Positions 20,599-44,559 of a DNA stretch of 47,501 nt are shown here, one piece after another. Position 1 is the first letter of the stretch. Every line of letters begins with the position of its first letter. This DNA comes from Akkermansiaceae bacterium (lineage in GTDB: Bacteria; Verrucomicrobiota; Verrucomicrobiia; Verrucomicrobiales; Akkermansiaceae): NCBI GenBank assembly GCA_903906515.1, contig CAIVKO010000105.1, positions 1 to 47,501 on the forward strand, read 5' to 3'. The notes beneath the pieces are model-generated. The model made no database searches, was not told where the DNA came from, and was given only the letters and a program-made list of their open reading frames with translations. Both the position numbers and the translations under genes were made by a program.

Positions 20599-20609
20599 TC
20601 CAAATCACG

Positions 20610-20615: not shown

Positions 20616-20622
20616 AATCTTT

Positions 20623-22737: not shown

Positions 22738-22782
22738 ATCGCCATGCCCCTATCCGGTTTCAAAACTATCTAAAGAATCCCG

Positions 22783-25626: not shown

Positions 25627-25632
25627 TATAGC

Positions 25633-25669
25633 ATGACTCAATATTCAACAAAACGGAGATAACATGAAA
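25633..25669 (+). repeat. Duplicated 37-base leader with Shine-Dalgarno, copy 1
   Basis: This block in front of the GH95 gene matches 29601-29637 in front of the GH141 gene at 32 of 37 positions. It contains TCAATATTCAA, the Shine-Dalgarno GGAG (25655-25658) and the ATG at 25664. An ATG at 25633 opens a 9-codon frame (MTQYSTKRR) that ends just before the main ATG, so it could also be a leader peptide. Confidence 0.75.
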
Positions 25670-27925: not shown

Positions 27926-29540
27926 CATTAAAACCATACGCCAGTCCTATGCTGACTTTTCGGTATTTATGGAGAACGGGTATATGAAGTCCGTTCGCCA
28001 TGTGTTCCGCTGTGGTATTTTCGTTGCGTCGTTGTTTACAGCGGGTACGGGCGGGGCGGTACCGGCCGATGATCAGCATCCCGTTATACCCGGGCAGGCT
28101 CTTCCAGGTTTGGTGGTATCTTCGCCCAAACTAGGCGATGCCGATTTCCCGAAGCCGTCACCCTCCGGGCGGCATAACGGAAAAGTGAAGGCGGTTCAGT
28201 CTGGAGACTATGAGCTGGTGATGATCGGTGACTCGATTACACAGTGTATTGGCGACAGCGGCGGTGAATGGGAGCCGATCAAGGCTGTCTGGAAAAAACA
28301 TTACGAACCGAGGAAAGCAATCAACCTCGGCTATAGCGGTTACCGCACCGAAAATATCCTGTGGACTTTGTCTAACGGCGAGTTGGAGTTTAAGAAATCG
28401 CCCAAGGTCTTCCGTATTCTTCTGGGTACCAACAATCTAGACGATCAGCATTATCCCCAAATCCATTCGGCTGAACAAGTGTTCGCAGGAACCCGGGCGA
28501 TCGTCAGCCTGATTCGCGGTAAGTTTCCCGATTCTAAAATTTTGATCCTGCGCATTTTGCCGTCAGGCGGCTCAAAGGATAAAACCGATTATCATCGCGT
28601 CTATTGTCGCTCTAACAAGGCGGTGCAGGCGCTTCGTGACGCCGGGGCGATGACTTCAGCGCTTGCAGACGGTGAGCATGTTTTCTGGCTGGATATCAAC
28701 CATGTTTTCATTAGACCGGACGGGACGATCAATTCCGATCTGATGCCTGATCTGATTCATCCTAATGCCGCCGGACATGAGGCGATGGCACAGGCCCTTG
28801 AGCCCGAGTTGGCCCGCTTGATGGGAGACAAGCCGATTGTAGATGAACCGGCCAACACGGCCGTCGTCCCTGCCTCAAAGCTGGAGGAAAACGGCTACGA
28901 CTGGTTGGGTCGGCATAATGAAATCATCAAGCTCGGAAAGCAGGTCGACCCCGAGGTGGTCTTCATCGGTGATTCCATTACCCATGGCTGGGGAGGGCAA
29001 CCCGTCGCCAGTTTCAGGCATGCCAGAACCCATACGATGGATCAGGTTTTTGGAAGTATCAGAACTCTCAATCTGGGTTTTGGCTGGGACCGTACGCAGA
29101 ATGTCCTGTGGCGCATTGATCATGGTGAACTTGACGGCATCAAGCCTCGTGCCGTGGTGCTCCACATCGGCACTAATAATACCTCTGGGACGAAGAAAGC
29201 GCGCCAGAATACCGCTGTGGAAATTACGGAGGGCATCCGGGCCTGCGTGATGCGTATCAGGGCAAAGCTGCCCGATGCCCGGATTATCCTGATGTCGGTC
29301 TTTCCCCGTGAAGCAAAGCCGGACCATCCGCGTCGCAAACTGATCGATGAGGTCAATAAAGTCCTTGCTGTCGAACTCGGGAACGTTCCGGGTATTACCG
29401 TTATCGATCTGGGCCCCAAATTGTGTAATTCAGATGGCACGCTTTCGCGGGACGTCTCGTTTGATTTCTGCCACCTGACGGACAATGGCTATCAATTATG
29501 GGCTGATGCGCTCACACCGATCTTGGCGCAGAAACAATGA
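27918..29540 (+). CDS. Secreted tandem SGNH hydrolase (two GDSL domains)
   Basis: Two SGNH esterase domains in one chain. Domain 1 (about 95-295): IGDSIT with S106, NLGYSG block II, LGTNN block III, and the [10 protein letters not shown] block V. Domain 2 (about 330-540): IGDSIT with S353, [17 protein letters not shown], and [11 protein letters not shown]. Both look catalytically complete, and the layout resembles platelet-activating-factor acetylhydrolase-like esterases. The first ATG (27918) overlaps the GH95 stop by 8 bases. The signal peptide ([18 protein letters not shown]) begins at an internal ATG at 27984 that has GGAG at 27971-27974, so 27984 may be the true start. Expected to deacylate oligosaccharides released by the neighbouring glycosidases; an internal gene duplication is the likely origin. 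Confidence 0.85.
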
Positions 29541-29600
29541 TTAAAATCGCATGGTTGGCATCACCAAGTGGAAAAAATTGGACGGAACCTAAAATAATGA

Positions 29601-29637
29601 ATGATTCAATATTCAATAAAGCGGAGACAGCATGAAA
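29601..29637 (+). repeat. Duplicated 37-base leader with Shine-Dalgarno, copy 2
   Basis: 32 of 37 bases match 25633-25669. GGAG lies at 29623-29626, 5 bases before the ATG at 29632. The upstream ATG (29601) opens a frame beginning MIQYSIKRR, the counterpart of MTQYSTKRR in copy 1, but here it runs on out of frame into the GH141 gene. Confidence 0.75.
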
Positions 29638-32049
29638 ATAGCAAAATCCATATACCATTATCTCGCTTGTGGGCTGTTCTGCCTGCTCGATACGCCGCGT
29701 GCTGGGGCACTGGAGATTCACGTCTCGCCGCAAGGACAGGACAGCAACCCCGGCACGTCTGTTGCGCCGCTGCAAAGCTTTGCCGCCGCCCAGCAAGCCG
29801 CCCGCCGCCTGGTCGCTCGCGAACCGGTCACGGTGACCTTTGCTGACGGGGTTTATTATCTGCCGCAGACCGTGGTGTTCACTGCCGCCGACTCCGGCAC
29901 GGCCGCCGCTCCGGTTGTCTATCAGGCCGCCACCGAACGCGGCGCAGTCCTCAGTGGCGGGGTTAAACTCGCCCTGACTTGGACGCCCTACAAGGACGGC
30001 ATCCTCCAGGCCCAGGTCCCGGCGGACCTCGACACCGAGGAGTTGTTTGTCAATGGCGAGCGGCAGGTTCTTGCCCGCTACCCCAATTTCGACCCGGCCG
30101 CCCGTTACCACAACGGACTTGCCGGGGATGCGCTCAGTCCGGAGCGGGCGGCGCGTTGGGCCAACCCCGCCGGCGGCTACTTCCACACCATGCACCCGTC
30201 GCTCTGGGGCGGCTTCGCCTTTCGGATCACCGGCAAAAATGCCGCTGGTGAGATCGTCAAGGAAGGCGGATGGCAAAACAACCGCGGTAAAGGAACCGGC
30301 CAAAAAGCCGGCTTCGTCGAAAACCTGTTTGAAGAACTCGACGCCCCCGGCGAATGGTTTCTGAATCGCACCACCCGCACCCTTTTCTATTATCCGCCCG
30401 CTGGACTCAACCTCGCCACCGCCTCGGTCGTGGCCAGTCGCCTGCGCACCCTCGTCGAGTTCTCAGGCAACGAAAAGAACCCGGTGCGCTTCGTCTCCTT
30501 GCGCGGGTTCACCTTCCAACACGCCGCCCGCACGTTCATGGATACCAAGGAGCCGCTGCTGCGCACCGACTGGGCAATCTACCGTGGCGGCGCGATCTTT
30601 TTCAACGGCGCTGAGGACTGCGCGCTCACCGACGCCCTGATCGACCAAGTCGGTGGCAACGCGGTGTTTGTCAATAATTACAACCGCCGCATCACCGTGC
30701 GTGGCTGCGAGATCCGCAAGGCCGGTGCCAGCGGTATCTGCTTCGTCGGCGATGCGAAAGCAGTACGCAATCCGCTCTTTAATTATTACGTCAAGCCCCT
30801 GAAGCTCGAAGCGATCGACCGCACGCCCGGCCCGCTGACCTCCAACTACCCCGCCGACTCGCTGGTCGAGGACTGTCTGATCTACCAGATCGGTCGGGTT
30901 GAAAAGCAGACCGCCGGCGTGGAGATTGACATCGCACAGTCCATCACCGTGCGTCACTGCTCGATCTACGACATTCCGCGCGCCGGCATCAACATCGGCG
31001 ACGGTGCCTTTGGCGGCCACCTCATCGAGTTCTGCGACGTGTTCGATACCGTGAAGGAAACCAGCGACCACGGCAGTTTTAACTCGTGGGGCCGCGACCG
31101 CTTTTGGACCCCAAAAATCGACGAGATCAACGCCCGCGTGCTGGCCGCCCCGGAGTTGCCGTTGCTCGACGTGGTCAAGCCTAACACCCTGCGCAACAGC
31201 CGCTGGCGCTGCGACCACGGCTGGGACATCGATCTTGACGACGGCTCCTCGAACTACGTCATCGAAAATAACCTGTGCCTTTCTAACGGAATTAAAAACC
31301 GCGAGGGCTATCACCGTACTGTGCAGAACAATATCATGGTGAACAACACGTTCCATCTGCACGTCTGGCCGGTGTCCAGCGGGGATAAGTTCCGGCGCAA
31401 CATCATTTTTGCCAACTACCTGCCTAAATACATGCCGCCCAAACCCGTGGGCCTGGAACTGGATTATAACCTGGTCCACCAGCCCGGGCTCACCGCGGTT
31501 CAACCGGCGAGCGAGTTGCAAAACCTGAGCGGACGCGATGAGCATTCCGTGATGGGCGATGCTTTGTTTATCAACCCGGCGGCGGGCGATTATCGGGTCA
31601 AGGAGGGTTCTCCCGCCCTGGCCCTCGGCTTCAAAAACTTCCCGATGGATCAGTTCGGCGTCAAAAAACTCGCGCTCAAGGCCATCGCCCGCACGCCCTC
31701 GTTTGGGACGGGGAAAGCCGCCGCAAAACGCGATCCCTCTGCGAAAATCTGGCTCGCGGTCCGGGTGCGCAACCTGATCGACCAAAATGAAATGTCCGTT
31801 TACGGGACGCCCGGGGTGACCGGCGTGCTGGTGCTCGACGTTCCCGCAGGCAGTGCGCTGGCAAAGGCCGGACTTCAAAAAGACGACGTGATTTTATTTC
31901 TCAACAACAAACCCGCTGACGACCTCGGACAGCTCCTCCGCCTGAGCGCCAAGCTCAAAGCTGGCGATGCCGCCACGATCGGCATCCTGCGCAACCAGAA
32001 AGCTCTCAAGCTTAACCTGACCTTCGCTGATAAGGCCCCAACCCCCTGA
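29632..32049 (+). CDS. Secreted GH141-type right-handed beta-helix enzyme with C-terminal PDZ domain
   Basis: 805 residues; signal peptide about 1-26 (RAGALE). The start of the mature protein (EIHVSPQGQDSNPGTSVAPL, then AAQQAARRL) and the segment TEELFVNGERQVLARYPNFD are typical of GH141, as is a parallel beta-helix running to about 640 with repeated turns (GCEIRKAGASGICFVGD, HCSIYDIPRAGINIGDG). Known GH141 members include an alpha-L-fucosidase from a rhamnogalacturonan-II system and xylanases. Residues about 716-800 form a PDZ-like domain (GVLVLDVPAGSALAKAGLQK, then DDVILFLNNKP). PDZ on a polysaccharide hydrolase is unusual; it may anchor or tether the enzyme. Catalytic residues cannot be assigned by eye. 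The leader is a duplicate of that of the GH95 gene. Confidence 0.85.
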   Translation: MKIAKSIYHYLACGLFCLLDTPRAGALEIHVSPQGQDSNPGTSVAPLQSFAAAQQAARRLVAREPVTVTFADGVYYLPQTVVFTAADSGTAAAPVVYQAATERGAVLSGGVKLALTWTPYKDGILQAQVPADLDTEELFVNGERQVLARYPNFDPAARYHNGLAGDALSPERAARWANPAGGYFHTMHPSLWGGFAFRITGKNAAGEIVKEGGWQNNRGKGTGQKAGFVENLFEELDAPGEWFLNRTTRTLFYYPPAGLNLATASVVASRLRTLVEFSGNEKNPVRFVSLRGFTFQHAARTFMDTKEPLLRTDWAIYRGGAIFFNGAEDCALTDALIDQVGGNAVFVNNYNRRITVRGCEIRKAGASGICFVGDAKAVRNPLFNYYVKPLKLEAIDRTPGPLTSNYPADSLVEDCLIYQIGRVEKQTAGVEIDIAQSITVRHCSIYDIPRAGINIGDGAFGGHLIEFCDVFDTVKETSDHGSFNSWGRDRFWTPKIDEINARVLAAPELPLLDVVKPNTLRNSRWRCDHGWDIDLDDGSSNYVIENNLCLSNGIKNREGYHRTVQNNIMVNNTFHLHVWPVSSGDKFRRNIIFANYLPKYMPPKPVGLELDYNLVHQPGLTAVQPASELQNLSGRDEHSVMGDALFINPAAGDYRVKEGSPALALGFKNFPMDQFGVKKLALKAIARTPSFGTGKAAAKRDPSAKIWLAVRVRNLIDQNEMSVYGTPGVTGVLVLDVPAGSALAKAGLQKDDVILFLNNKPADDLGQLLRLSAKLKAGDAATIGILRNQKALKLNLTFADKAPTP

Positions 32050-32101
32050 CCGGGTCATTCCGGCTCAACCACTTCCCGCTTTATCCAATCCTGGAATCCT
32101 A

Positions 32102-33952
32102 ATGAACATGAAACCAACTATCAAAGCCCTCGCGCTGATCCTATCACTCTCGGTCGTGCTGCCGGCCTTCGCTGCGGAGACCCCCGCAGGGAAAACCACT
32201 CCGGCAAAAACCACTCCGGCGGAGATCACTCCGACGGAGTCGATTACTGAGGACGCCTCCCCGGAGGTCGCGGAAACCCCGGAACAAAAGAAGCTCAGGG
32301 ACCAGCGGATGAAATGGTTTCGTGAGGCCCGGTTCGGTCTGTTCATCCACTGGGGCGTGTATGCCGTACCCGCCGGTGAGTGGCAGGGCAAAGGGGTCGT
32401 GTCAGCCGGAGAATGGATCATGTATACCGGCAAAATCCCTGCGGCCGAATACCGGGAGTGCGGCAAGGGCTTCACCGCCGCCAACTACGATCCGAAGGCC
32501 TGGGCGCGCCTGGCCCGCAACGCCGGTATGAAATATGTGGTGATCACCAGCAAGCATCATGACGGTTTCGCCCTGTTTGACTCGGCGGCGAGCGACTGGA
32601 ATGCGGTCAAGGCCTCCGCCGCAGGCCGCGATCTGCTCGCCCCGCTGGCCGACGCCGTGCGCGCCGAGGGCCTTAAGTTCGGCTGCTACTACTCGCAGGT
32701 CCAAGACTGGGTCAATCCGGGTGGCACGTTCTTCAAGGGCGGCAAGCAGTTTCCTCCGACCCAGCCTGGCCCATTCGACGAGTATCTGAAAAAGACCGCC
32801 TTGCCCCAGGTCCGGGAAGTTCTGGACCGTTACAAGCCAGACATTTTCTGGTGGGACACTCCGGGTAGCATCAGCAAGGAGCGCGCCCAGCCATTTGCCG
32901 ACCTGCTCGCCCAGCACCCGTCGATCATCAGCAACGACCGCCTTGGCGGGGGCTTCAAGGGCGACACCCTGACCCCTGAACAGCACATCCCGCCGCGCGG
33001 CTACCCCGGCAAGATGTTTGAGGTCTGCATGACCATGAACAACACTTGGGGATTTAAAACCAGCGACACCCATTGGAAGAGCGTGCGCGACCTGCTGCGC
33101 AATCTTTCCGACATCTCCAGCAAGGGCGGCAATTTCCTGCTCAACGTCGGCCCGACCGCCGATGGACGCATTCCCGAGGCAAGTGTGGAACGGCTCGAAG
33201 CGGTCGGCCGTTGGATGCAGGTCAATAGCGAGGCGATCTACGCCACCGAGGCCACCCCCTTTCTGCGCCGCCTGACGTGGGGACGCATCACCCAAAAAGC
33301 CGGTGACAATGGCTCGACCACGCTCTACCTGCACGTCTGGGATTGGCCGAAAGACGGTCGCCTGGTTTTGCCCGGTCTTCACTCGGTGCCCAGCGCGGGC
33401 AAGCTGCTCGCCAATGGGGTGGAGGTTATCGCCCAGTTGACCGCCGACGGTCTGGTGGTGACGTTGCCCGCCGAGGCGACCGACCCCATGATCTCGGTGG
33501 TGCGCCTGCAGTTCCCCGGCGCGTTGAGTTTGAATGAGTATCCTCTCGACGCTGAGGGCCGCATCGCGCTGACCGGTTTGGATGGCGACGGGACGGGCGG
33601 GCGTCACGGGAATTTTAAAATTCGAGGCAGCGGTGCCGATACTTATCTGACGGACTGGAAGGACTCGTATTGGACTCTCGATTACCGGGTCAAGGTGCCG
33701 ACCGCCGGAAGCTGGCAGGTGAGCGCCGAATTCGCCTCGGCAGAGCCGGCCAAGCTCATCCTGAGCAGCGGCAAGCTCAGCGCCAAGACCACCGTGCCCG
33801 CCGGGGCCGACGCGAAGGCCTGGCACACCGAGGTTCTCGCCACCCTCGATCTGCCCGCCGGCGAGCAGACGATCCAGTTGCAGGGCGAGAAAGACGGTTG
33901 GACAGCCGGCCCTGATGTCCGTCGCCTCTGGCTCAAACCGGTGAAGAAGTGA
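32102..33952 (+). CDS. Secreted GH29 alpha-L-fucosidase (class A type), third GH29
   Basis: 616 residues. Signal peptide 1-25 (VLPAFAAET), then a Thr/Pro-rich linker of three five-residue repeats (31-45) and the catalytic domain. Landmarks: FIHWG near 82, SKHHDGF (H152, H153) and DIFWWDTPG with D252 as predicted nucleophile, plus the GGNFLLNVGPTADG segment near 342. Residues about 385-470 form the C-terminal beta-sandwich and about 475-615 a CBM6-like jelly roll (NFKIRGSGADTYLTDWKDSY). It resembles the GH29 at 3641 more than the class B copy at 18523. The ATG at 32102 and the ATG two codons later are both possible starts. Its signal-peptide DNA resembles that of the next gene, whose mature protein is unrelated. 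It is followed after 26 bases by that gene. Confidence 0.92.
   Translation: MNMKPTIKALALILSLSVVLPAFAAETPAGKTTPAKTTPAEITPTESITEDASPEVAETPEQKKLRDQRMKWFREARFGLFIHWGVYAVPAGEWQGKGVVSAGEWIMYTGKIPAAEYRECGKGFTAANYDPKAWARLARNAGMKYVVITSKHHDGFALFDSAASDWNAVKASAAGRDLLAPLADAVRAEGLKFGCYYSQVQDWVNPGGTFFKGGKQFPPTQPGPFDEYLKKTALPQVREVLDRYKPDIFWWDTPGSISKERAQPFADLLAQHPSIISNDRLGGGFKGDTLTPEQHIPPRGYPGKMFEVCMTMNNTWGFKTSDTHWKSVRDLLRNLSDISSKGGNFLLNVGPTADGRIPEASVERLEAVGRWMQVNSEAIYATEATPFLRRLTWGRITQKAGDNGSTTLYLHVWDWPKDGRLVLPGLHSVPSAGKLLANGVEVIAQLTADGLVVTLPAEATDPMISVVRLQFPGALSLNEYPLDAEGRIALTGLDGDGTGGRHGNFKIRGSGADTYLTDWKDSYWTLDYRVKVPTAGSWQVSAEFASAEPAKLILSSGKLSAKTTVPAGADAKAWHTEVLATLDLPAGEQTIQLQGEKDGWTAGPDVRRLWLKPVKK
32191..32235 (+). 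repeat. Three 15-base tandem repeats in a linker
   Basis: Three 15-base units sharing a CACTCCG core encode KTTPA, KTTPA, EITPT just after the signal peptide of the GH29 protein. Such repeats change length by replication slippage and set the distance between membrane or anchor and catalytic domain. Confidence 0.7.
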
Positions 33953-33978: not shown

Positions 33979-36900
33979 ATGAACATCAAACAAACCCTCA
34001 AAGCCATCACGCTGATCTTGTCACTCGTGGTTGGCCTGGCAGCCATCGGCGCGGAAGGCCCGGCGGAAATTACCGCCGGAAAGATATCGCTGAAATTCAC
34101 GTCCGACGGGAAACCAAAATCCTTCAAGGTGGGTGATAAAGAGCTGCTGAACGAACAAAACCCAGGCATCGGCTTTGAGATTCAAGGCTTCGCTTATAAC
34201 TATGGAAATCCCTCGACGATTCGTTTCAAGGATTTGCAGTATGATGGCAAAACATTGGTGGCGAGCATTGGCGCCAATCTACGCGTTACTCTGGAGGTCA
34301 AAACAACTGACCGTTATATCGCGTTTAAGATCAGTCGGGTGGAAGGGCTTCCCCGTAAAAATCGGCTTGGGCTGCGTTTCAATATGAACGTCGCCGACAC
34401 GGTGAAAGTGCTGCCCCTGGATGCGGCCACCAAGACGTCGGCCACCGGTTGTGACATTCGCTGGCCATGGCTGTGGATGCGTTCCGACAACGTTCCCCTC
34501 GGCGGCTTTGCCCTTTATGATTCCGCGCAGGAAAAAGACGCGGCGGCCTTATTCCTTCATATTTGCCAGACCGAAAACATCGCCAAGCCTTCCGACCTCA
34601 AGGGTGAATGGGATTTGGCTGCCGCCAAGCATTTCTTTACCGACTGTCAGGCCCAGTGGGCGGACCCCGATCTGGCCGAATTGAAAAAGGCCTCCAGTCC
34701 AGGAACCGCTTCTGCCGTTGAAATTAAAGCGAATAAAATTCAATTAAAATTTTCAGCCACCGGCAAGCCAGCCGCATTTATAATCAACGGCAGCGAGGCG
34801 CTTAACGCCAAGGATCCGGGTGCCGGATTCGAGCTCTGCGGCTTCGATTATGCCGAAGGTAAGCAGGTGACTTTCCCACTCAATCAGCTCCTCTATGACG
34901 GGAAGCAACTGATTGCTTCGAATGGACGAAAGGTTAGGGTCACCTTTGAGGTCTCCATCACCGATCGCTATGTCGCATTTAAAATGAAAAGCATGGAAGG
35001 GATTTCGCCAGAAAGCCGTCTCTGGCTCCAATTCCGCATGAATACTGCGGTAAAAACCAAGGCCCTGGCCCTCGACTACATGTGCGGGGTGGGCAGGCAG
35101 GGAAACGCGATCGCGATCAACTGGTACTGGCTATGGGATAACTCTGCTAATCATCCGTTGGGCGGGTTTGCCCTCTACGCACCCACCAATGGCGAGGACG
35201 AAGACGAGACCCTGCTGCATCTGTGGGCAAACGCAGGTCTGCCGCACCCCAAAATCAAAGGGGAGTGGAATGTCGAGACCGCCCGCAAATGGCTGCTCGA
35301 CTGGCAGACTCAATTTGCCGATGTCAGCAAAATGGTGATTTCAGCCAAAACCACTGCCGAACTCTATGCGCTGGCCGACTATGCGGCCAAGATGGACATC
35401 AAGCGCCTCTATATGCACACCGACACCTGGCGTGGAGAATACTGGCCGAATAAATTCAGCTTTCTCCATCTGAACCCTGCCACCTTCCCGAAAGGCGAGG
35501 AAGACTTCCAAAAGTTTGCCAGCTATACCCGAGCCAAGGGCCTGGGACTTACCATCCATGACGTTAGCTGCTCCATTGGCAATCAGGATCCCGATTATGT
35601 GGTTGGTAAAATTGATCCACGCCTGGCCAAGTGGATTCAGGGTACCTTGGCCCAAGCCGCATCCGCGACGGACAAAACAATTTATTTCAAACCAAATCCG
35701 GGCGAAGAAATGCCGATCACCCTCGATCGAAGCATTACCGGCCCTTCTCAAACCAGCCCCCAGAACAACATTAATATCATTTGTGTTGATAGCGAATTGA
35801 TCGAGGTCGGCCAGTTTACGGACACGGACAAGGAAATGTGGACCCTCAAAAACTGCCGCCGAGGCAAGCTGCAAACAACTCCCGCCCCGCATGAGGCCAA
35901 AGCACCGCTTGCCGGCCTGCTGCGGCCCTATGGCCAGGTCTTTACCGCTAACAACGACACCACTCTAGTCGAAGAACTCGGCCGCCGCATGGCTGAATTC
36001 TACAACCGCAACAATATCGTCCACTGTATCCAGGATAGTGCCGAATCGCATACGGTCAATCATCCCTGGGGCTACGCCAAGTTTGCCCAAGCGGTCTATA
36101 CGAATTTAGATCATCCCACGACGAGCAATAATTCCGGTGGCACACCGATGCCGTGCCATTTTGAATATAAATTTAACAGTTCGAAAAAGGCCATGCGAAC
36201 CAGTGCCGACGATGAGGTCGCCAGCACGAACTCCAGCGATCAACCCGCACCCCTGACGCCCACCGAAAGAAATGGCCTCACCATCCCGCTGACAATTGCC
36301 CGAAATGGACGCCCTGCCACAACGCCTTATGAAATGTTTTCGCTCGTCGGAAAACCCGTGGCCGCCGGGCTAAGAAGTATTGGTATTTATAAACCGGAGC
36401 CGATGTTTGGCATTACCATGGAAACTCTCCAAAATCAGGGTCTGTCCGCCTACGCCGCCGCAGTTGTTGTCAATTGGAAAAAAGCCGGTCAGCTCCTGAC
36501 TGAAGCGCAAAGAGAAATGATTCTTGCCAGCTCGGACCATGTCATTTTTCGTGCTGCCAATGAACAGGGCCGTTTGAGCGTTACCCCACTGCGGATGCTC
36601 TATCGCGAAGGAATTGACATCCCCTGGAGAGAAGGTTCTGAGTTCGGCCCGATCGTACCCCGGCAATATGTGAAAACCGGCGATAACCTTGAAGTTGTAA
36701 ATCCATACGCCGATCAGGAGCCGGAATTTATCATTCACGTGATGAATGCCCTTGACGCATCCCCGGCGGCGACGCTGAGAGCCCCTCAACCAGCCACGGC
36801 CAGCGGCAAGGATGGAAGCATTATTGACAGCTATAACATTGGCGCGGGAATCAAAACTTCAGAAGGCTCTCGGGCCTCCGCGGGAAGCGCCAAAGCAGCT

Positions 36901-37650
36901 GAAATTGCGATTCAGCCACTGGCCGACAAAATCAAAAACCGCGGGGACCATTCTTTCACCCCGGATGGCAATGCGGTCAGAATTCAATTTAACAACAAAA
37001 GAAATGAAATCGTCACCCATGAGGAAAAACTGCCATCGTGGAGCTGCGATTCCGACATGACCCAAGCCCGTGGTATTGGGCTCACTGTGGATGGAGATGG
37101 CAGCGGTGCCATACTTGTTATTCAGCCTAACAGCCGGGGTCGACGCGACTATATTGTTCCCTTGGATTTTAAGGGCGAGCGCAACATTATCATTCCCTGT
37201 GGCGAAGCCGCCTGGGCCGATGCCCGCTGGGGGTGGCGAATGGAGACCAAGGGAAGTCAATATACCGGGCTTAAAAAAGTATCGATGGCGATCGGCAAGG
37301 TTCCCCCCAAAACCAGTGTTGATATTAAAGTTAGCAATTTGCGGGTGCTCCCGGAAATTCCGACGGTCGTGATTAATCCGATCATCAACATCAGCTCAGG
37401 CTCCATGTGCATCACCGGCAAAGTTTACAGTGAATCCTACCTGTGGTTTCAAGGCGGCGATACCGTAGGCGTTTATGACTTGAATTGGAACAAGATCGCA
37501 GATCTGCCGGTCAAAAAGCAAAACTTCATTGCCCCCAAAGGTGCCGTGAAACTTTCGCTGGCCTGTCACGATGCGAATCCCGCACCCTGGCTGGAGTGGC
37601 AATTCTTTGTCAAAGACACGCCGATGGTGTTAGGCGATCACAAGGAATAA
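33979..37650 (+). CDS. Very large secreted protein of unknown family with duplicated N-terminal module
   Basis: 1223 residues from the ATG at 33979, chosen because it starts a clean signal peptide (MNIKQTLKAITLILSL, AIGAE cleavage); a GTG at 33949 gives only a 10-residue extension. I recognise no named family. Residues about 31-229 and 248-447 are tandem copies of one beta-rich module (PGIGFEIQGFAY/PGAGFELCGFDY, TDRYIAFK/TDRYVAFK, PLGGFALY in both). About 448-600 looks like the start of an alpha/beta barrel (KRLYMHTDTWRGEYW, GLGLTIHDVSCS), interrupted near 570-650 by an inserted beta domain (VDSELIEVGQ, then RRGKLQTTPAPHEAKAPL). The barrel-like part resumes (IQDSAESHTVNHPWGYAKF) to about 850. 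The C-terminus (about 1000-1223) is a jelly-roll, carbohydrate-binding-like region. Its place between GH29 and a DUF5703 protein suggests a candidate glycoside hydrolase or lyase; this is inference. Confidence 0.75.
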   Translation: MNIKQTLKAITLILSLVVGLAAIGAEGPAEITAGKISLKFTSDGKPKSFKVGDKELLNEQNPGIGFEIQGFAYNYGNPSTIRFKDLQYDGKTLVASIGANLRVTLEVKTTDRYIAFKISRVEGLPRKNRLGLRFNMNVADTVKVLPLDAATKTSATGCDIRWPWLWMRSDNVPLGGFALYDSAQEKDAAALFLHICQTENIAKPSDLKGEWDLAAAKHFFTDCQAQWADPDLAELKKASSPGTASAVEIKANKIQLKFSATGKPAAFIINGSEALNAKDPGAGFELCGFDYAEGKQVTFPLNQLLYDGKQLIASNGRKVRVTFEVSITDRYVAFKMKSMEGISPESRLWLQFRMNTAVKTKALALDYMCGVGRQGNAIAINWYWLWDNSANHPLGGFALYAPTNGEDEDETLLHLWANAGLPHPKIKGEWNVETARKWLLDWQTQFADVSKMVISAKTTAELYALADYAAKMDIKRLYMHTDTWRGEYWPNKFSFLHLNPATFPKGEEDFQKFASYTRAKGLGLTIHDVSCSIGNQDPDYVVGKIDPRLAKWIQGTLAQAASATDKTIYFKPNPGEEMPITLDRSITGPSQTSPQNNINIICVDSELIEVGQFTDTDKEMWTLKNCRRGKLQTTPAPHEAKAPLAGLLRPYGQVFTANNDTTLVEELGRRMAEFYNRNNIVHCIQDSAESHTVNHPWGYAKFAQAVYTNLDHPTTSNNSGGTPMPCHFEYKFNSSKKAMRTSADDEVASTNSSDQPAPLTPTERNGLTIPLTIARNGRPATTPYEMFSLVGKPVAAGLRSIGIYKPEPMFGITMETLQNQGLSAYAAAVVVNWKKAGQLLTEAQREMILASSDHVIFRAANEQGRLSVTPLRMLYREGIDIPWREGSEFGPIVPRQYVKTGDNLEVVNPYADQEPEFIIHVMNALDASPAATLRAPQPATASGKDGSIIDSYNIGAGIKTSEGSRASAGSAKAAEIAIQPLADKIKNRGDHSFTPDGNAVRIQFNNKRNEIVTHEEKLPSWSCDSDMTQARGIGLTVDGDGSGAILVIQPNSRGRRDYIVPLDFKGERNIIIPCGEAAWADARWGWRMETKGSQYTGLKKVSMAIGKVPPKTSVDIKVSNLRVLPEIPTVVINPIINISSGSMCITGKVYSESYLWFQGGDTVGVYDLNWNKIADLPVKKQNFIAPKGAVKLSLACHDANPAPWLEWQFFVKDTPMVLGDHKE
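34069..35320 (+). repeat. Coding tandem duplication: two 200-residue modules
   Basis: 34069-34665 and 34720-35320 encode two diverged copies of one domain. Shared positions include GKP near the start, the PGxGFE motif, YDGKxLxAS, RVTxEV, TDRYxAFK, xxEGx, the LRFNMN/LQFRMN strand, two Trp residues and PLGGFALY. Identity is visible at protein level but low at DNA level, so the duplication is old. Confidence 0.75.
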
Positions 37651-37657
37651 TGGAACC

Positions 37658-39910
37658 ATGAAACCCATCGAAGCAACGTTCGTTTATGCACATATCTATT
37701 GCGCCGCATCAGTCAGCGTAGCCCTGGCGTTGCTTTCAGCGTCCTGCGCCGCCTCGGAGGTGCAAGTGAAATCTGGCGTGGATAACTCCAATGTTGTCTG
37801 GGATTCGCCGAGCACAGACTCCCGAGGGTCGATGCCGATCGGCAACGGCGATATCGGTGCAAACGTCTGGGTCGAACCCACGGGTGACCTGCTGTTGTTG
37901 TTGTCCAAAACCGATGCGTGGGATGAAAACATGCGGTTGGTCAAACTCGGCCAGGTGCGCATCCGTCTGGAGCCCGCCTTGGATGTTCAGTCTGGGTTCC
38001 GTCAGGAATTGAAACTCCGTGATGGTGCGATTGAAATCCAGACATCGCGGGCCACCCTTCGTGTCTGGATTGACGCCCATCATCCGGTGGTGCAGGTGGA
38101 TGGCCGATCATTAGACAACAAGCCGCTGGCGGTTGTCGCCGACCTTGAGGTATGGCGCAAGGGAAAGAAACCGTGTGATCCAGGGTATCCCAATTTTGTG
38201 GAGCCCGCGCCATTTTCCTGGCCCGACACCGTGATGAAGGCCGCCGGGAATGAAGTGGCCTGGTATCATCGTAACGCTGTCTCGCCCTGGCTATCCAACC
38301 TCAAGATTCAAAAGTTGGAAGCACTGGCGAAAACAGAGCAAGACCCGATTCAAGACCGTACCTTTGGTGCCGTCATGAAGGGGGATGGTATGATTGCCAC
38401 CTCCGACACCCAACTCAAAACTGCCAAGCCCCTGTCCGAGTTTTCCCTTCGCGTTCATGCACTCACGCAACCCAACGCGACGGCAGAGGAGTGGCGCGCC
38501 TCCTTGGCGAAACAGACCGCCACCACGGAGGTGGTTCCGTCTGCAGAGCGTCTAGTGGCCCACCGCCAGTGGTGGGCGGCGTTTTGGGACCGAAGCTGGA
38601 TTTCCCTGAGTGGTGATGCGAAGGCGGTGGCTGTATCGCGCGGGTACACGCTACAACGCTGGGTCAGCGCCTGCAGCGGTCGCGGCGCGTATCCGATCAA
38701 GTTCAACGGCTCCATCTTTGTCGTGGACCAGGCTGGCAAGTTTGGCGACGGCACCGATTTCCGGAAATGGGGAGGCTGTTATTGGTACCAAAACACGCGG
38801 TTGTCTTACTGGCCGATGCTGTTGTCGGGAGACGGTGACATGATGCTACCCTTTTTCAGCCTTTACCAGAAGGCACTGCCGGCACGCCGTCTCGCCACAC
38901 AAACGTATTACGGACATGCCGGCGCGTTTTTCCCGGAAACCATGACCCTCTGGGGCACCTACAATGACAAAAACTATGGGCCCGACCGCACGGGAAAACC
39001 GGATGGACTGACCGACAACGCCTTCATTCGTTATTACTGGCAGAATGGCCTCGAATCCATCATGTTGATGCTTGATTACTACGATTTCACACAAGATGAG
39101 ACCTTCCGCGACAACATGCTGATTCCGTTTGCCACCGATATTCTGGCCTTCTTCGACCAGCATTGGCAGCGGGACAGCAACGGCAAAATTCTCTTCACCC
39201 CTTCTCAATCGCTGGAAACCTGGCACAGCACCACCAATCCGCTGCCGGAGATCGCGGGTCTGCGCTATGTCCTCCCTCGGCTGTTGGAAATCACTGCGAA
39301 TTCAACGCTGAAAGCCGCCTGGCAGAAGCTGCTTGCTGACCTGCCCCTCGTCCCATTGAGCCCCAAACCCAATCAGCGCATCCTTCCAGCGGAAAAGTTT
39401 GACAAAAAATGCAACACCGAAAATCCTGAGCTTTATGCCCTGTTTCCCTATCGGCTTTACACCTTGGCTGCCGGCGAGGATGCACTTGCTATCGGAAAAA
39501 ATAGTTACACCGCACGACGTCACAAGGAAAATGACTGCTGGCGGCAGGACCCCATACAGGCTGCGCTCTTGGGATTAAGTGCCGAAGCGCGCAACGGTGT
39601 AGCCGGAAGAGTTTCCCGTGTTGCGCCGGGCTTCCGCTTCCCTGTCATGTGGGCCGCCAGTTGTGACTGGATGCCAGACCAAGACCATGGCGGTGTCCTG
39701 CAGGTCGCTCTACAATACATGCTCCTTCAGTATGAGGGCAACCGTATGCTCCTCCTCCCTGCCTGGCCGAAGGAATGGAACGCTAGTTTCAAGCTACACG
39801 CGCCGAAAAACACCACGGTGGAAGGCCGCGTGGAAGGCGGCAAGCTGATGGATATCAAGGTCGTGCCGGAGTCGCGGCGTAAAGACCTCGATATCCGTGA
39901 TGCGCAATGA
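37658..39910 (+). CDS. Secreted DUF5703-type protein, GH95/GH65-like putative glycosidase
   Basis: 750 residues. A hydrophobic signal region covers about 10-32 (ALLSASCAAS; the Cys could make it a lipoprotein). The N-terminal domain (NVVWDSPSTDSRGSMPIGNG, then DIGANVWVEPTGDLLLLLSK) matches the DUF5703 N-terminal signature and parallels the GH95 super-sandwich opening. From about 310 the protein is rich in helices and Trp (RQWWAAFWDRSWI, KWGGCYWYQNTRLSYWPML), as in an (alpha/alpha)6 barrel. A conserved-looking ETMTLWGTYND segment and SQSLETWHSTTNPLPE near 530 could hold acidic catalytic residues, but I cannot assign them. It lies 7 bases after the unknown 1223-residue gene and ends the second run. 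No activity has been assigned in what I know of this family; a glycosidase role is inference. Confidence 0.75.
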   Translation: MKPIEATFVYAHIYCAASVSVALALLSASCAASEVQVKSGVDNSNVVWDSPSTDSRGSMPIGNGDIGANVWVEPTGDLLLLLSKTDAWDENMRLVKLGQVRIRLEPALDVQSGFRQELKLRDGAIEIQTSRATLRVWIDAHHPVVQVDGRSLDNKPLAVVADLEVWRKGKKPCDPGYPNFVEPAPFSWPDTVMKAAGNEVAWYHRNAVSPWLSNLKIQKLEALAKTEQDPIQDRTFGAVMKGDGMIATSDTQLKTAKPLSEFSLRVHALTQPNATAEEWRASLAKQTATTEVVPSAERLVAHRQWWAAFWDRSWISLSGDAKAVAVSRGYTLQRWVSACSGRGAYPIKFNGSIFVVDQAGKFGDGTDFRKWGGCYWYQNTRLSYWPMLLSGDGDMMLPFFSLYQKALPARRLATQTYYGHAGAFFPETMTLWGTYNDKNYGPDRTGKPDGLTDNAFIRYYWQNGLESIMLMLDYYDFTQDETFRDNMLIPFATDILAFFDQHWQRDSNGKILFTPSQSLETWHSTTNPLPEIAGLRYVLPRLLEITANSTLKAAWQKLLADLPLVPLSPKPNQRILPAEKFDKKCNTENPELYALFPYRLYTLAAGEDALAIGKNSYTARRHKENDCWRQDPIQAALLGLSAEARNGVAGRVSRVAPGFRFPVMWAASCDWMPDQDHGGVLQVALQYMLLQYEGNRMLLLPAWPKEWNASFKLHAPKNTTVEGRVEGGKLMDIKVVPESRRKDLDIRDAQ

Positions 39911-39953
39911 AGCGCCTTTCTCCTTTATAAAATAAGGGTAGTGAACCGCGTCC

Positions 39954-40112
39954 CTACCTTGTAATCAAATTCAGAATCGACTTCTGGACGTGCAATCGGT
40001 TTTCAGCCTGATCAAAAATGGTAATGCTGGGGGGCAGGGCGAGTTCTATCAATTTGGGTTGTTCGCGAAGCCGCTGAAAAAGGGGGCGCGTCGTTACATG
40101 GATACATCGCGC
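39954..40112 (-). pseudogene. 3' relic of ornithine carbamoyltransferase (argF/argI-type)
   Basis: Read on the minus strand, the frame between a TAA (40113-40115) and a TAG (39954-39956) ends in FDQAENRLHVQKSILNLI followed by TR. The core FDQAENR(L/M)H is the hallmark C-terminal helix of ornithine carbamoyltransferases. The residues upstream do not show the expected HCLPAHRG motif, so only about the last 25 codons are recognisable. The fragment has no start and is antisense to every neighbour. It is either debris of a deleted arginine gene or the displaced 3' end of a gene hit by an insertion or rearrangement. Confidence 0.7.
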
Positions 40113-40132
40113 TTAAAAAGGTGCCTGGCCGG

Positions 40133-40155
40133 CATCCTATAAAATGAGGATAGGC
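40133..40155. repeat. 23-base repeat, copy 2 (hairpin-forming)
   Basis: The block starts with CATCCTATAAAATGAGG and ends GATAGGC; 22 of 23 bases match 9744-9766 in the same orientation. ATCCT (40134-40138) pairs with AGGAT (40147-40151). It sits 93 bases upstream of the gene at 40249, as copy 1 sits upstream of the gene at 9940. Confidence 0.7.
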
Positions 40156-40248
40156 GATCATGGGCGGAATTGACTACGATGTGGGTCTTCGATCAGTTAT
40201 AAGCTGAGGCCAAATTTAAAAACCTTTTTCCCCTAACGATACTCCTTG

Positions 40249-43200
40249 ATGAAAATCCTCACTTCCCATCTGTCCGCGCCCCGCATAATTCTCATCGCTG
40301 CGATGCTGGGCTCGTTGCTTGGTTTCCAACGGGCGTATGCCGCCGCTGAGCGTGCGGATAATTACGAGATGGCCATGGCACGGGCGAAAGCCGCCGGCAA
40401 GGACATCGTGGTGTTCCAGCGCGGCAGTGACTGGAACCGGCTCGGCGAGATGCTCTATCAGGATGTCTGGTTGAAGGATGAATTTGCCAAGGAACTCGGC
40501 GACGGTTTCGTGCTGGTGGCGGTGGATCGGCCGGAGGCCGCTACGGGGGCGGCGGCGTTGCGGCTCGCGAATTTGTCGGATGCGAAGACCCCGCTCCCGT
40601 CCAACGAAGTGACAGCCGTGGAATCGGATGCGAAGGTTCCTTTCGCCGCACGTCCTGACGGTGCCTTCCTGGCGAAGGCCAGTCCCAATCCAGACAAGGA
40701 TACGTTGACACTCAAGCTCAAAGTCAAAGGCGGTGGTCGCGTCCTGCGTCTGGATTTTCCTACCGACTCCAGCCTGCCAGCCACCGGCCCGGGACGGGCG
40801 ACTAACGGAAATTTCTGCGTCTCCGAAATCGTAGTTCGCAATGCAGGCAAAGCACTCGCCATCACCGCCGCCTGGGCCAACTCCGGTAGGCCTGAACAGG
40901 GTGCCTGGCGGGCCATTGATGGCATCGAGGACCAACCGGACAACTTCTGGAATGCGCTGACCAATGACGGTCATCGCAGAACTCTGTTTCTACTTTTAAA
41001 AGACGCCCTCCAGCCTGGAGTAATCCTTTCAATCCAGCTCCAATGCCTCAGCAACAGCAAACAACATGTGCCGGGCTGTGTGCGTGTGGCTTCCCTCCAT
41101 GACGCCGCGACGGAAGCCGATTTGCGTGCCTGCACCGAGGATGAGCAGAAGGCCGCGTTGAACGTGAAATACACCTGGTGGGATACCACCATCTGTCCGC
41201 GCGTCGCCCTGCTGGACCGCGAGGGCCGAGCTGTCGCCTGTGAGAACAAGCCACGCCTCGGTCTAACACCCAAGACCATGGCGGCACGGGTGAAAGAATT
41301 GCGGACCATCCGCGAAAACCGCGATGCCTTGTGGGCCAAGGCGGACGCGGCGCAAGGCCCCGCCCGGGCGGAGTTGTTGCGCCAGGGACTCGACGCGATG
41401 GCAATCGCCAACTGGCCGGGCAACGACAAATGTTATATGCTCGTTCACGACAAGATCCGCGTGGCCGACCCCAAGGACGAGAGTGGCGCTGTGCGCTGGC
41501 TCACCTTCGGCGGCGATCCGCGCGATGGCTTGAAGTGGGCTGAACCGAGTTGGTCGCAGGCCATTGCGAACAAGCCACTCACCGACAAGGATTTCATGGA
41601 GGCCTTGGCGCGCATCGACAAGGAACTCAAGGACCCGCGCAACAAGGTGCTCGACCACGAGCGCATCCAGCGCATCATGATCGCCAAATACCTGGTTTAC
41701 AGCCGCTGGCCGAAACATCAGGAACAACGATACGACATCCAACGCGAAATCGCGGCGCTCGATCCCGATACGTTCTGGGGGATCGGCGCGATTGGCGACC
41801 TCGCCATGCACCATCAAACCGCGACGCCGATGTTGACCTACGGCTGGGCGGCAAATCAGGTGAAGCCCGGACCCAACACATGGGACATGGCAGATACATC
41901 CTATCTTTTCGACCATGCCGGCTCTTACAAAATCCGACTGGTTGTCAAAGGCGGCAAGGGAGCCCTGACGATCCGGCGCATTGCAATGCTGGACGGCACG
42001 AATGTTCTATCAGAAGCGAGGCCGGAGTTCCGTCTCGGCCAGGGCAATACCACCGTGGAAGTGGACTTGAACCTGAAGGAATGGCGTGCCGCCCACCGCT
42101 TGGTGCTGCGTCTGGAGGTGGATGCAGGTGCCGGCCAAACCGATATTGCGGGTGAAATCGTGGTCGAACCGCAATTGCCTGTCTTGCCCGCCATCACCGC
42201 CAAACCCACGGCGACCGATGAAAAAACCCGGATGTTGAACGGCGGCTTGATTCCCGAGCTCCAACAGAAGCTGGACGCGATTCTGACGGCCGGAACCACG
42301 AGGGACGGGCCCATTACCATCGCTCCGGATGTGCAGGCGGCCTTGGCGCAAGCCACCCTGATCCGCCTCTGCGGCGCGGAAAAGGTCGGAAACATCGCCA
42401 AACGTGACGGAGGCGCGATGTTTCTCCAGTCCTTGTTCAAGGATCCGGTGTGGCTGGATTCGTTGCTGGCCTCCGGCAAGGCGGATTGGCCCCAGTCACT
42501 GGAGAACCTTTATCTACTGAGGAGATATGGCAAAGGATGGGAGCAGCCTTTCCTTCAGCGGCTCGCCACCGCGCTCGCACTGCAATGGGGCAAGAGATCG
42601 TCCTATCAATTGGTGGACCGCTTCGCCCATATCCAACAGGCTTTGCGTGACGGATTGATGCATGTCAGTTTCGAGAGTTTGAACGTGCGGGAACTGCGTT
42701 GGGCGGTTTACACGGATGGCACCGCCAGGGACTATCAGTTTCTGCTGGATGACCGGCAGACCCGCCTGCGGGACTACCTCGGGGCGCATGGTGGCATTCG
42801 CTATGTCAGCTTCAATGCCTACGGAGTTTCGGTTCAGGACGGCTGGAACTATCTTGCTCCCTGGGCGCATGTGTATGGTGGTCGTTTCATAATCCACAAA
42901 AAGGTCGGTGGAGTGTGCGGGGCGGTCTCTACCTATGCCTCGGTCACTGCCAGAGCTCACGGCATCCCCTCCATCGATATCGCCCAGCCCCGCCACTGCG
43001 CGTTCATCGTCCGGTCCGGTCAGGAATGGCCGGTAGGCAACAGCGTGAACTGGCCAAGCTCGGTCACCGCGCCCGGTTGGGACGGCACGAGTTATGCCAC
43101 CCAGAACCGTTTGTATGAACCGGTCAATCAGGACCACGAGCGCTTCATTGCGGCCACCCGCCTCGGTTGGTTGGCGCAATGGCAGGCGGAGCGCGCCAAG

Positions 43201-44361
43201 GCCGGCACCGACTGGATGAAAACCTATCAACAGGCGATTGCCGCGCAACCGACCAACTACGGAACCTGGCTCGAAATCATCAAACTGCTGGAAGCCGCCA
43301 AGGATACGCCGGCCGCGACATGGCTCGATCTGGGACAACGGGCCGCGCGCACGTTCTCCGCCTACAACGAAGCGGGCTGGACATTGACCCGGCGTTGCCT
43401 GGATAAAGCGTTTCCGGCAATGAAGCCCGCCGCACGGATGGAGGTCCTGCTCGCGTGCAACCGGGAACTGCGGCAGGAAAACTGGTATAAGCCTGATAGT
43501 TTTCCATACGACGGAATTCTCGACTGGCAGAACAAGAGCCTCGGAGATCCGGCGCTGGGTGTGGAGTTGTTCGGAAAGCTGTTAGTCATTCATTATAGCG
43601 ACAAGCCGAACTGTAACTTCATTTTCGGCAACGTGATGAGCTGGGGTTCGAAGCGATTCGCCGGCAATCCGGCAACGGCTCCGGCTTATGCCAAGGCAAT
43701 GGCGGCGTTCTTCCAGGCCAAGGGCGCGTCCATCGACGAGAATCTGCTAGTCACCACATTGAAGACGAGCATCCGCAAGGCCAGCGAGGCTGGCGACATC
43801 GTCAGCTATCATCTTTGGACCGATATGGCGGAGAAATTGCTGCCGCCGCCCAAGCCCGACGATGTATACCTGAAACCGGCCCAGGTGGCGGCCTATCCGA
43901 AATACCAATCATTTCCCGGTAACCTGCTGAGTCAGGACGGAATGCTGCAAACCAGTAGCGCTCACGCGGACGACCAACCGCTGTCATACCGGCAGGTCCT
44001 GAGCGGCGGGTCTATCGGTTGGTTCGACACCGCCAGCGACAAGAAGCCATGGGCGCAGGTGCAGTTGCCCGGCGAGGGCGAACTGGCCGGTATCGTCCTG
44101 GTCGGCCGCCATGAATACCCGCGGAACCATGTGGGGTACAAGGCGGCACCGCTCAAGGTGTCGGTCTCGCTGGACGGTAAGACGTGGACGGAAGTCGCCT
44201 CGTTTGAAAAGGACGAGATGGTTTTCCGCGTGGATCTGCAAGGGCGGAACCTGCTGGCGCGTTATGTGCGGGCCGAGCGTGTTCCCGGGCCGCAGGAGAC
44301 CAAGTCATTCGAGCGCTTCAATCTCCGCGGCTTCATGGTTTACGGGAAAAAGTTGTATTAA
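40249..44361 (+). CDS. Giant secreted multidomain protein: degenerate thioredoxin-like, discoidin, transglutaminase-like, discoidin
   Basis: 1370 residues from the ATG at 40249 (a TTG three bases earlier is in frame but unnecessary). Signal peptide 1-31 (FQRAYAAAE). Residues about 35-100 follow the secreted thioredoxin-like pattern (AAGKDIVVFQRGSDWNRLGE), but both cysteines of the usual C-x-x-C are missing, so no redox role is expected. About 150-265 is discoidin-like (RAIDGIEDQPDNFWN). About 790-935 is a transglutaminase-like core: C890 in GVCGAVSTYASVTARAHGIP and H916 in RHCAF; the third residue is unclear (N931/N934 lie where Asp is expected). Helical repeats follow to about 1200, and 1228-1369 is a C-terminal F5/8 type C domain. 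Possible roles: cysteine-peptidase or cross-linking enzyme on glycan-bound substrate, or a non-catalytic scaffold. It stands alone, in front of the kinase gene. Confidence 0.75.
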   Translation: MKILTSHLSAPRIILIAAMLGSLLGFQRAYAAAERADNYEMAMARAKAAGKDIVVFQRGSDWNRLGEMLYQDVWLKDEFAKELGDGFVLVAVDRPEAATGAAALRLANLSDAKTPLPSNEVTAVESDAKVPFAARPDGAFLAKASPNPDKDTLTLKLKVKGGGRVLRLDFPTDSSLPATGPGRATNGNFCVSEIVVRNAGKALAITAAWANSGRPEQGAWRAIDGIEDQPDNFWNALTNDGHRRTLFLLLKDALQPGVILSIQLQCLSNSKQHVPGCVRVASLHDAATEADLRACTEDEQKAALNVKYTWWDTTICPRVALLDREGRAVACENKPRLGLTPKTMAARVKELRTIRENRDALWAKADAAQGPARAELLRQGLDAMAIANWPGNDKCYMLVHDKIRVADPKDESGAVRWLTFGGDPRDGLKWAEPSWSQAIANKPLTDKDFMEALARIDKELKDPRNKVLDHERIQRIMIAKYLVYSRWPKHQEQRYDIQREIAALDPDTFWGIGAIGDLAMHHQTATPMLTYGWAANQVKPGPNTWDMADTSYLFDHAGSYKIRLVVKGGKGALTIRRIAMLDGTNVLSEARPEFRLGQGNTTVEVDLNLKEWRAAHRLVLRLEVDAGAGQTDIAGEIVVEPQLPVLPAITAKPTATDEKTRMLNGGLIPELQQKLDAILTAGTTRDGPITIAPDVQAALAQATLIRLCGAEKVGNIAKRDGGAMFLQSLFKDPVWLDSLLASGKADWPQSLENLYLLRRYGKGWEQPFLQRLATALALQWGKRSSYQLVDRFAHIQQALRDGLMHVSFESLNVRELRWAVYTDGTARDYQFLLDDRQTRLRDYLGAHGGIRYVSFNAYGVSVQDGWNYLAPWAHVYGGRFIIHKKVGGVCGAVSTYASVTARAHGIPSIDIAQPRHCAFIVRSGQEWPVGNSVNWPSSVTAPGWDGTSYATQNRLYEPVNQDHERFIAATRLGWLAQWQAERAKAGTDWMKTYQQAIAAQPTNYGTWLEIIKLLEAAKDTPAATWLDLGQRAARTFSAYNEAGWTLTRRCLDKAFPAMKPAARMEVLLACNRELRQENWYKPDSFPYDGILDWQNKSLGDPALGVELFGKLLVIHYSDKPNCNFIFGNVMSWGSKRFAGNPATAPAYAKAMAAFFQAKGASIDENLLVTTLKTSIRKASEAGDIVSYHLWTDMAEKLLPPPKPDDVYLKPAQVAAYPKYQSFPGNLLSQDGMLQTSSAHADDQPLSYRQVLSGGSIGWFDTASDKKPWAQVQLPGEGELAGIVLVGRHEYPRNHVGYKAAPLKVSVSLDGKTWTEVASFEKDEMVFRVDLQGRNLLARYVRAERVPGPQETKSFERFNLRGFMVYGKKLY

Positions 44362-44442: not shown

Positions 44443-44464
44443 TTGTGCCGCACTGTGCGGCCAA
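44443..44464 (+). terminator. Hairpin between the transglutaminase-like and kinase genes
   Basis: GCCGCA (44447-44452) pairs with TGCGGC (44456-44461) around a 3-base loop, and TTG/CAA extends the stem past one bulged T. No U-tract follows, so termination or attenuation is only a possibility. The rest of the 198-base gap shows no gene. Confidence 0.35.
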
Positions 44465-44559
44465 TATCACTCCTCTCGCCCTATGAATTTATGTCTGGGG
44501 TTGACGGGAGCCACCGATGGACTGGGACTCCAGAAGTTCGCGAGATTTCTCATCGATTA

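Follow-up and report, generated by a model that had tools for sequence, protein, structure and literature searches.

A 47,501-nucleotide contig of an Akkermansiaceae bacterium, a lake-type relative of Akkermansia (GCA_903906515.1, contig CAIVKO010000105.1; "the window" below means this whole stretch) raises the question of what a large, unfamiliar secreted protein does among genes for fucosidases and esterases. The protein, which we label P0001, is encoded on the forward strand at 33979-37650. Fucose-rich polysaccharides are hard to degrade, and the Verrucomicrobiota are described in the available text of PMC8857213 as specialised in consuming methyl-pentose polysaccharides. A family that lacks a Pfam or NCBIfam model and sits beside fucosidases and esterases would identify a cutting step so far missing. 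We propose, with a probability of roughly 0.7, that P0001 is a secreted glycoside hydrolase (GH) of a family undescribed in Pfam, NCBIfam and PDB, a relative of the alpha-galactosidase-type enzymes that uses D686 as its nucleophile and acts on a fucose-rich, acylated glycan. This proposal draws on the sequence, its internal duplication, conservation, selection and genomic context, and on a predicted fold that places D686; from these we infer catalysis, bond type and substrate. If it is correct, P0001 would found a new CAZy family, provide a probe for acylated fucose glycans, and exemplify the growth of an enzyme through duplication of its own accessory domain.

The frame begins with an ATG at 33979, about 10 bases downstream of a purine-rich AAGGGA, and an alternative GTG start lies at 33949. 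Domain borders and beta folds given here come from predicted models, none of them solved (Table 1). An AlphaFold model of residues 236-1223 (mean predicted local distance difference test score, pLDDT, 85.2; predicted template modelling score, pTM, 0.84) contains a sandwich, linker helices, a barrel, a beta insert and C-terminal beta domains, and a second model, of residues 398-872, reached a pLDDT of 86.5 and a pTM of 0.87. DSSP assigned seven barrel strands, starting near residues 451, 476, 523, 680, 715, 767 and 801, and gave the eighth strand no assignment. The model places the stretch RRGKLQTTPAPHEA in the beta insert that separates barrel strands 3 and 4 (about residues 546-655). A preliminary description of this DNA had named a 1,223-residue frame, a signal peptide (by eye), a double module of about 200 residues and a barrel-like centre with a beta insert, all of which are observed in the sequence or recovered in the models; of the C-terminal jelly-roll region that it also proposed, the model bears out C-terminal beta domains. 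One of these, residues 1000-1132, is 85.7% identical to its counterpart in the ortholog L020, with a ratio of nonsynonymous to synonymous substitution rates (dN/dS) of 0.07; the CBM_11 model matched 10 of 41 family members at E up to 0.1, P0001 itself not being among them. We note that the first 61 residues of P0001 (33979-34161) resemble the start of the upstream GH29 protein (32102-32308; 36% over 69 columns, E 2e-4), mostly in the signal-peptide region.

Searched alone, P0001 matched nothing significantly in Pfam, NCBIfam or PDB, and none of the three yielded a significant full-length match to a characterised enzyme. With HMMER filters on, neither Pfam Melibiase nor PF12905 matched it at E up to 10, and there was no match to PF01055, GH27-type or GH13 Pfam models. 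Literature searches found no description of the family, a weak negative given that there is no family name to search by, and no paper joining three of the terms GH36, GH101, supersandwich and clan. The earlier statement that no known signature is recognisable nevertheless goes too far. A profile of 41 family barrels picked up 12 PDB sequences at E up to 10. Three of these, all of the Flavonifractor plautii GH36 galactosaminidase, ranked first (E 1.9e-5); the other nine (E >0.01) were alpha-galactosidases, beta-L-arabinopyranosidases, an alpha-N-acetylgalactosaminidase and one alpha-L-fucosidase. Pfam Melibiase matched two of the 41 members at E up to 0.1 (best 0.0061).

The predicted fold agrees with the profile. 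The barrel model aligned best with GH36 (5m0x; Z 15.3, root-mean-square deviation (rmsd) 4.2, 265 residues), followed by GlgE (Z 14.4), GH27 (13.5) and GH31 (13.3). The long model aligned with GH36 8x1b from its residue 12, sandwich through barrel (Z 14.0, rmsd 6.0, 411 residues), and an N-terminal beta super-sandwich precedes the predicted barrel, as in GH36. Fold and profile thus both appear to point to alpha-galactosidase-type enzymes; a shared fold by itself shows no function. The preliminary description had offered a new glycosidase or lyase family. A glycoside hydrolase is probable, and the lyase half finds no support: some lyases are also large multidomain secreted proteins, but beyond the earlier suggestion nothing favours one, and since the informative fold and profile matches are all glycoside hydrolases we regard a polysaccharide lyase as very improbable.

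These matches bear on what kind of hydrolase P0001 may be. Eleven of the 12 PDB sequences are of alpha-galactosidase or beta-L-arabinopyranosidase type (the alpha-L-fucosidase is the twelfth), and the cluster also holds a GH2 gene resembling BT4151 and two Melibiase-like genes, all of which would suit an exo-acting enzyme of that type stripping side-chain caps from a fucosylated galactan, rhamnogalacturonan I or an algal polysaccharide. The GH36 nucleophile motif is missing from P0001, however, the cluster already contains the two Melibiase-like genes, and the insert would be expected to reshape the cleft; we see this specificity as possible, at somewhat less than even odds.

Five positions are invariant in all 41 members: E606, R628, G629 and H638, which lie in the insert, and D686. 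An acid stands at position 689 in 39 members. A tree of the 41 barrels separates clade A (20 members, P0001 included) from clade B (21), and in clade A both E729 and an Asp or Glu at 785 are kept in 19 of 20. In GH13, GH27, GH31 and GH36 the nucleophile sits at the end of strand 4. Because D686 is invariant and lies at the end of strand 4 in the model, we take it as the candidate nucleophile, with E689 or E785 as the candidate general acid. By comparison, the available text of PMC11762096 lists K461 and D463 among the conserved active-site residues of FpGalNase and reports that D463A is nearly inactive.

After strand 4, P0001 has D-S-A-E where D-G-x-E is usual. This replacement, together with the surface added by the duplicated domain, would fit a protein whose hydrolase scaffold has lost catalysis and serves to bind glycans, with two binding modules. 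Against that, D686 and E689 are kept, and the barrel is among the best-conserved parts relative to the ortholog L020 (88% and 84% identity in its two parts), a lower dN/dS being found only in residues 1000-1132. We consider a dead binder improbable.

Several results weigh against P0001 being an alpha-galactosidase-type hydrolase with D686 as nucleophile. Centred on strands 2-3 and their FPxG motif, the PDB profile match spans some 50 residues and stops short of D686, and a smaller profile of 14 sequences gave weaker results (nine matches, one of them an alpha-amylase; best E 0.0074). Profile-profile comparison with 20 GH36 sequences aligned only strands 1-3, at a probability of 7-12%, which fell to 2% with the insert removed. 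The K-x-D-x-N nucleophile motif occurs in 0 of 41 members versus 16 of 20 GH36 sequences of the phylum, and on this ground we call P0001 a relative of GH36 and not a member. At the end of strand 6 there is no acid common to all 41 members, and D/E785 lies after that strand. The GH36 Z of 14-15 is barely above the GH13-type 14.4, so that the barrel alone does not discriminate clans, and Foldseek ranked pyruvate kinase first for the barrel alone. Finally, 8 of 16 clade-A loci have no listed GH29 within 10 kb (three in G305, the others in G110, G215, G036, G029 and G199; the G029 contig is less than 4 kb long).

Some candidates and approaches were rejected. Pyruvate kinase was dismissed as a relative on its template modelling (TM) scores of 0.20-0.27 and rmsd of 13-17, and we read the match as a shared placement of an inserted domain. 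Matches in a viral structure library (tail, capsid and other proteins) had TM-scores of only 0.04-0.16 over the query. NCBIfam rhamnosidase models matched two of the 41 members, probably through an inserted jelly-roll domain such as that suggested by the sequence of L016, and we did not adopt that identity. Mapping D686 onto the catalytic residues of GH36 or GH101 by profile-profile alignment failed, only strands 1-3 aligning with or without the insert; the catalytic assignment therefore rests on model position and conservation. At E up to 0.1, the insert itself matched Rcc01698_C (PF23666) in 21 of 41 members, with a best value of 8e-6, P0001 scoring 18.4 bits against a curated cut-off of 27 bits.

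The N-terminal module is plainly doubled. Alignment of residues 30-229 with 248-448 gives 44% identity over 202 columns (E 2e-56), too close a match to have arisen by chance; the fold of copy 1 is assumed from this identity with the modelled copy 2. Scanning 19 clade-A proteins with a module profile, and disregarding two very weak short matches, we found two copies in P0001, L020 and L026 and one copy in the other 16. A relative in G379 shows a similar pattern of two module matches, and in L026 about 175 residues, F5/8 type C-like by eye, separate the copies. Each P0001 copy shares 52-54% identity with the single modules of L022 and L023 but only 44% with the other copy, which argues that the duplication is not recent; the module tree left a single duplication and separate duplications in P0001 and L026 unseparated. 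Relative to L020, dN/dS is 0.18 for copy 1, 0.16 for copy 2, 0.10 and 0.15 for the two barrel parts and 0.22 for the insert, the module values indicating that purifying selection has kept both copies. Since 16 of the 19 proteins scanned carry one copy of the module, it is the enzyme's own N-terminal domain, copied. The earlier alternatives of a super-sandwich or two glycan-binding units thus divide: the module is super-sandwich-like, and two binding units are not needed to explain it, as single-copy relatives carry it too. The extra copy could have taken on glycan binding.

We scanned 20 long frames of the window besides P0001 against Pfam at 1e-3. Eighteen had a match, and 15 of those 18 suggest work on polysaccharides or esters: the window holds three GH29 genes, a GH95, a DUF5703/GH95-like gene, a GH2, the two Melibiase-like genes, a beta-helix protein, and esterases of GDSL, BD-FAE and AXE1-like types. 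The GH2 resembles the exo-beta-1,4-galactosidase BT4151 (E 5.8e-219; 730 bits, below the model cut-off of 1500). The preliminary claim that all recognised neighbours are polysaccharide enzymes does not hold, as a PATR-repeat protein, a prepilin-like protein, a histidine kinase and a response regulator are also present. Its placement of P0001 in a fucose-type cluster stands, relatives likewise lying near fucosidases.

The setting recurs, in part, elsewhere. Within 40 kb of contig from G051, 12 of 22 long window frames have counterparts (67-94% identity). Those 40 kb lack the frames from 18523 to 32102 and from 37658 to 40246, the P0001 counterpart follows the BD-FAE gene and not the GH29 of 32102, and the AXE1-like esterase is 2.8 kb away (15 kb in the window). 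Two further families of the phylum show the order GH29, P0001 relative, AXE1-like esterase. The G183 relative is flanked by a GH29 that shares 57% identity with one of the window GH29 proteins and by AXE1-like esterases, four in number, of which the closest two are 61-62% identical to window proteins; that of G303 is flanked by a GH29 (41%) and one AXE1-like esterase (47%).

The 22.6-kb contig of G183 carries, as window-like genes, only the GH29, the P0001 relative and the four esterases, and there P0001 could be the sole other chain-cutter. That would suit an endo-acting, endo-fucanase-like enzyme cutting the backbone of an acetylated fucose-rich polymer while GH29 trims the ends and AXE1-like esterases unmask the chain. 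Foldseek's best matches to the long model were likewise endo-acting GH101 enzymes (E 4e-13, with a TM-score of 0.27 over the query and rmsd of 28), and no sulfatase was found among the 20 long window frames scanned. On the other side, GH36, nearest by profile and by Z, is exo-acting, no fucan-cleaving family was matched, and the short G183 contig starts 6 kb before the gene, so that partners may be missing from it. We judge backbone cleavage unlikely.

Of 16 clade-A loci in 11 genomes, 8 have a GH29 no more than 10 kb away, as counted by eye from positions among the matches listed; 1.10 would be expected. The associated probability of 2e-6 overstates the link, because the test was picked after the loci had been seen and assumes random placement, and sugar genes cluster. 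The count set aside five clade-A members that have a shorter C-terminus or some 800 residues in all (L008, L036, L037, L039 and L041), further copies in G269, G319 and G337, clade B, and the later-found G379, G383 and G413. Genome G000 had 29 GH29 matches in 4.48 Mb, the second highest of the 11 genomes among the matches listed. Around 11 loci we scanned 64 of 70 frames of at least 240 residues within 7 kb; GH29, sulfatase and GDSL each occurred in four of these proteins, AXE1 in three and GH106 in two, and further neighbours, such as cytochrome-type and HEAT-repeat proteins, have no plain glycan tie. In the nearest clade the link with fucose is good; across the wider family it is loose. In their available text, PMC5615132 describes freshwater Verrucomicrobia metagenome-assembled genomes as rich in GH29 and GH95, and PMC13174399 describes Akkermansiaceae genomes as mostly carrying fucose-targeting families.

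Table 1. Features of P0001 and of other window genes (window positions; residues refer to P0001).
Feature	Positions	Strand	Basis or remark
P0001 gene	33979..37650	+	open frame, 1223 residues; 79% ortholog L020:9787-13440
Putative signal peptide (by eye), residues 1-25	33979..34053	+	charged start, hydrophobic core, small residues before presumed cut
N-terminal module copy 1, residues 29-240	34063..34698	+	44% identity to copy 2; dN/dS 0.18 vs ortholog
N-terminal module copy 2, residues 241-445	34699..35313	+	beta sandwich and linker helices (model); dN/dS 0.16
Barrel strands 1-3, residues 446-545, with FPxG motif and H527	35314..35613	+	models; profile match to GH36/GH27
Beta insert between strands 3 and 4, residues 546-655	35614..35943	+	models; weak Rcc01698_C profile match, 21/41 members
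Insert motif C626-R628-G629...H638	35854..35892	+	R628, G629, H638 (and E606) invariant 41/41
Barrel strands 4-7 and closing helices, residues 656-850	35944..36528	+	models
D686, candidate nucleophile, end of strand 4	36034..36036	+	invariant 41/41
E689, candidate general acid	36043..36045	+	Glu in 36/41, Asp in 3/41
E785, alternative candidate general acid	36331..36333	+	Asp or Glu in 19/20 clade-A members
C-terminal beta domain after barrel, residues 851-935	36529..36783	+	model
Beta domain, residues 1000-1132, CBM11-like by inference	36976..37374	+	placed by conserved columns 1032-1084
Terminal beta domain, residues 1133-1220	37375..37638	+	model
PATR-repeat protein	1-1443		Pfam
1257-residue protein, prepilin-like N-terminus	9940-13713		weak GspK and Verru_Chthon_A matches; 76% in G051
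AXE1/DLH-like esterase, one of three in cluster, 15 kb from P0001	16606..18501	+	homologues adjoin P0001 relatives in G183, G303
GH29 alpha-L-fucosidase directly upstream	32102..33952	+	PF01120 E 4.6e-85
DUF5703/GH95-like gene directly downstream	37658..39910	+	PF18961 E 1.6e-71, PF22124 E 1.2e-9
1371-residue protein, otherwise no clear family	40246-44361		C-terminal F5/8 C matches, weak Trx7/PDZ match
Histidine kinase	44443-46554		weak F5/8 type C (sugar-binding-like) match ahead of kinase part
Response regulator (by eye)	46562-47233		follows histidine kinase

Three further observations concern the other window genes. The histidine kinase and response regulator, about 85-87% identical in G051, are possibly a direct sugar sensor. 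The prepilin-like protein might tie the sugar cluster to a pilus-type system, one of which the available text of PMC13174399 describes for Akkermansiaceae. The frames 13723-14421 and 14234-16474 overlap, and the esterase-like frame that opens with GTG at 14234 may start further downstream.

Relatives of P0001 are thinly scattered. A search of the genus and order (99 genomes, its own included) gave a match in 8, a spread of 288 genomes of the phylum a profile match in 27, and 148 genomes of the class of G183 a single-sequence match in 5. The nearest full-length relative, with 79% identity and the same two modules, is L020 (Akkermansiaceae bacterium isolate Loclat_bin-13236). L022, which is the G183 relative, and L023 come from other families of the phylum and have a single module; both share 59% identity with residues 236-1223. 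In the barrel tree P0001 and L020 group with L022 and L023 (support 100/99), and within the window's genus only 2 of 61 genomes searched, its own and G051, hold the full-length branch. Grouping with distant families and patchy presence suggest that this branch has spread horizontally. L069:8489-10672, in G193, is a distant clade-B relative from another genus of the same family.

Mobile elements gave little. The P0001 query had no match in a plasmid collection, and that of a distant relative, L015, matched two plasmids of the actinomycete Embleya; an Embleya plasmid protein is a distant relative by profile (E 1.2e-86 in a small search). A phage collection gave one match, L100:1397-1741 (MT835657.1), in an unverified stool record labelled bacteriophage, where no frame of 150 residues covers the match and the adjoining frames are sigma-factor-like and FecR-like by eye. 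We judged the record a bacterial fragment; its DNA is probably bacterial, perhaps from a gut member of the Bacteroidota.

We can thus set out how P0001 would work as a secreted glycoside hydrolase. It would be a distant relative of the alpha-galactosidase-type families GH36, GH27, GH31 and GH101, with their N-terminal super-sandwich duplicated and a further beta domain inserted between the third and fourth barrel strands. It would most likely cut an alpha-type glycosidic bond, D686 serving as nucleophile and E689 or, in P0001's branch, E785 as acid. Its target, outside the cytoplasm, would be an acylated, fucose-rich glycan that AXE1-like esterases and the GH29 and GH95 fucosidases attack together with it. 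A fuller account, in which P0001 is the large double-domain form of an undescribed family with a GH13-like insert, and in which clade A has spread horizontally through the Verrucomicrobiota and breaks down acetylated fucose-rich polysaccharides in partnership with fucosidases and esterases, is tentative, and we doubt that all its parts will hold.

Among known systems, the GH36 alpha-galactosidases and FpGalNase (8x1b, 9ayu, 5m0x) share with P0001 the order of N-domain, barrel and C-domain, as given for FpGalNase in the available text of PMC11762096, whereas the beta insert, second N-domain and extra C-terminal domains set P0001 apart. The GH101 endo-alpha-N-acetylgalactosaminidases (5a57, 3ecq, 2zxq) are likewise large multidomain secreted enzymes, but profile-profile probability against three GH101 sequences is about 1% and TM-scores are about 0.2-0.27. 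GH27 and GH31 give weak profile matches with the family's barrels, and D-x-x-E after strand 4 occurs in GH31 too. The extra domain after strand 3 presumably stands where GH13 has its domain B; P0001 differs from GH13 in its N-terminal super-sandwich. Rcc01698_C, from gene-transfer-agent and phage tail proteins, is weakly like the insert, through either a common origin or a shared small fold; the R-G motif of the insert is absent from the Embleya relative. Set beside these systems, P0001 probably joins a known fold, and likely a known chemistry, to a new family and a new domain make-up.

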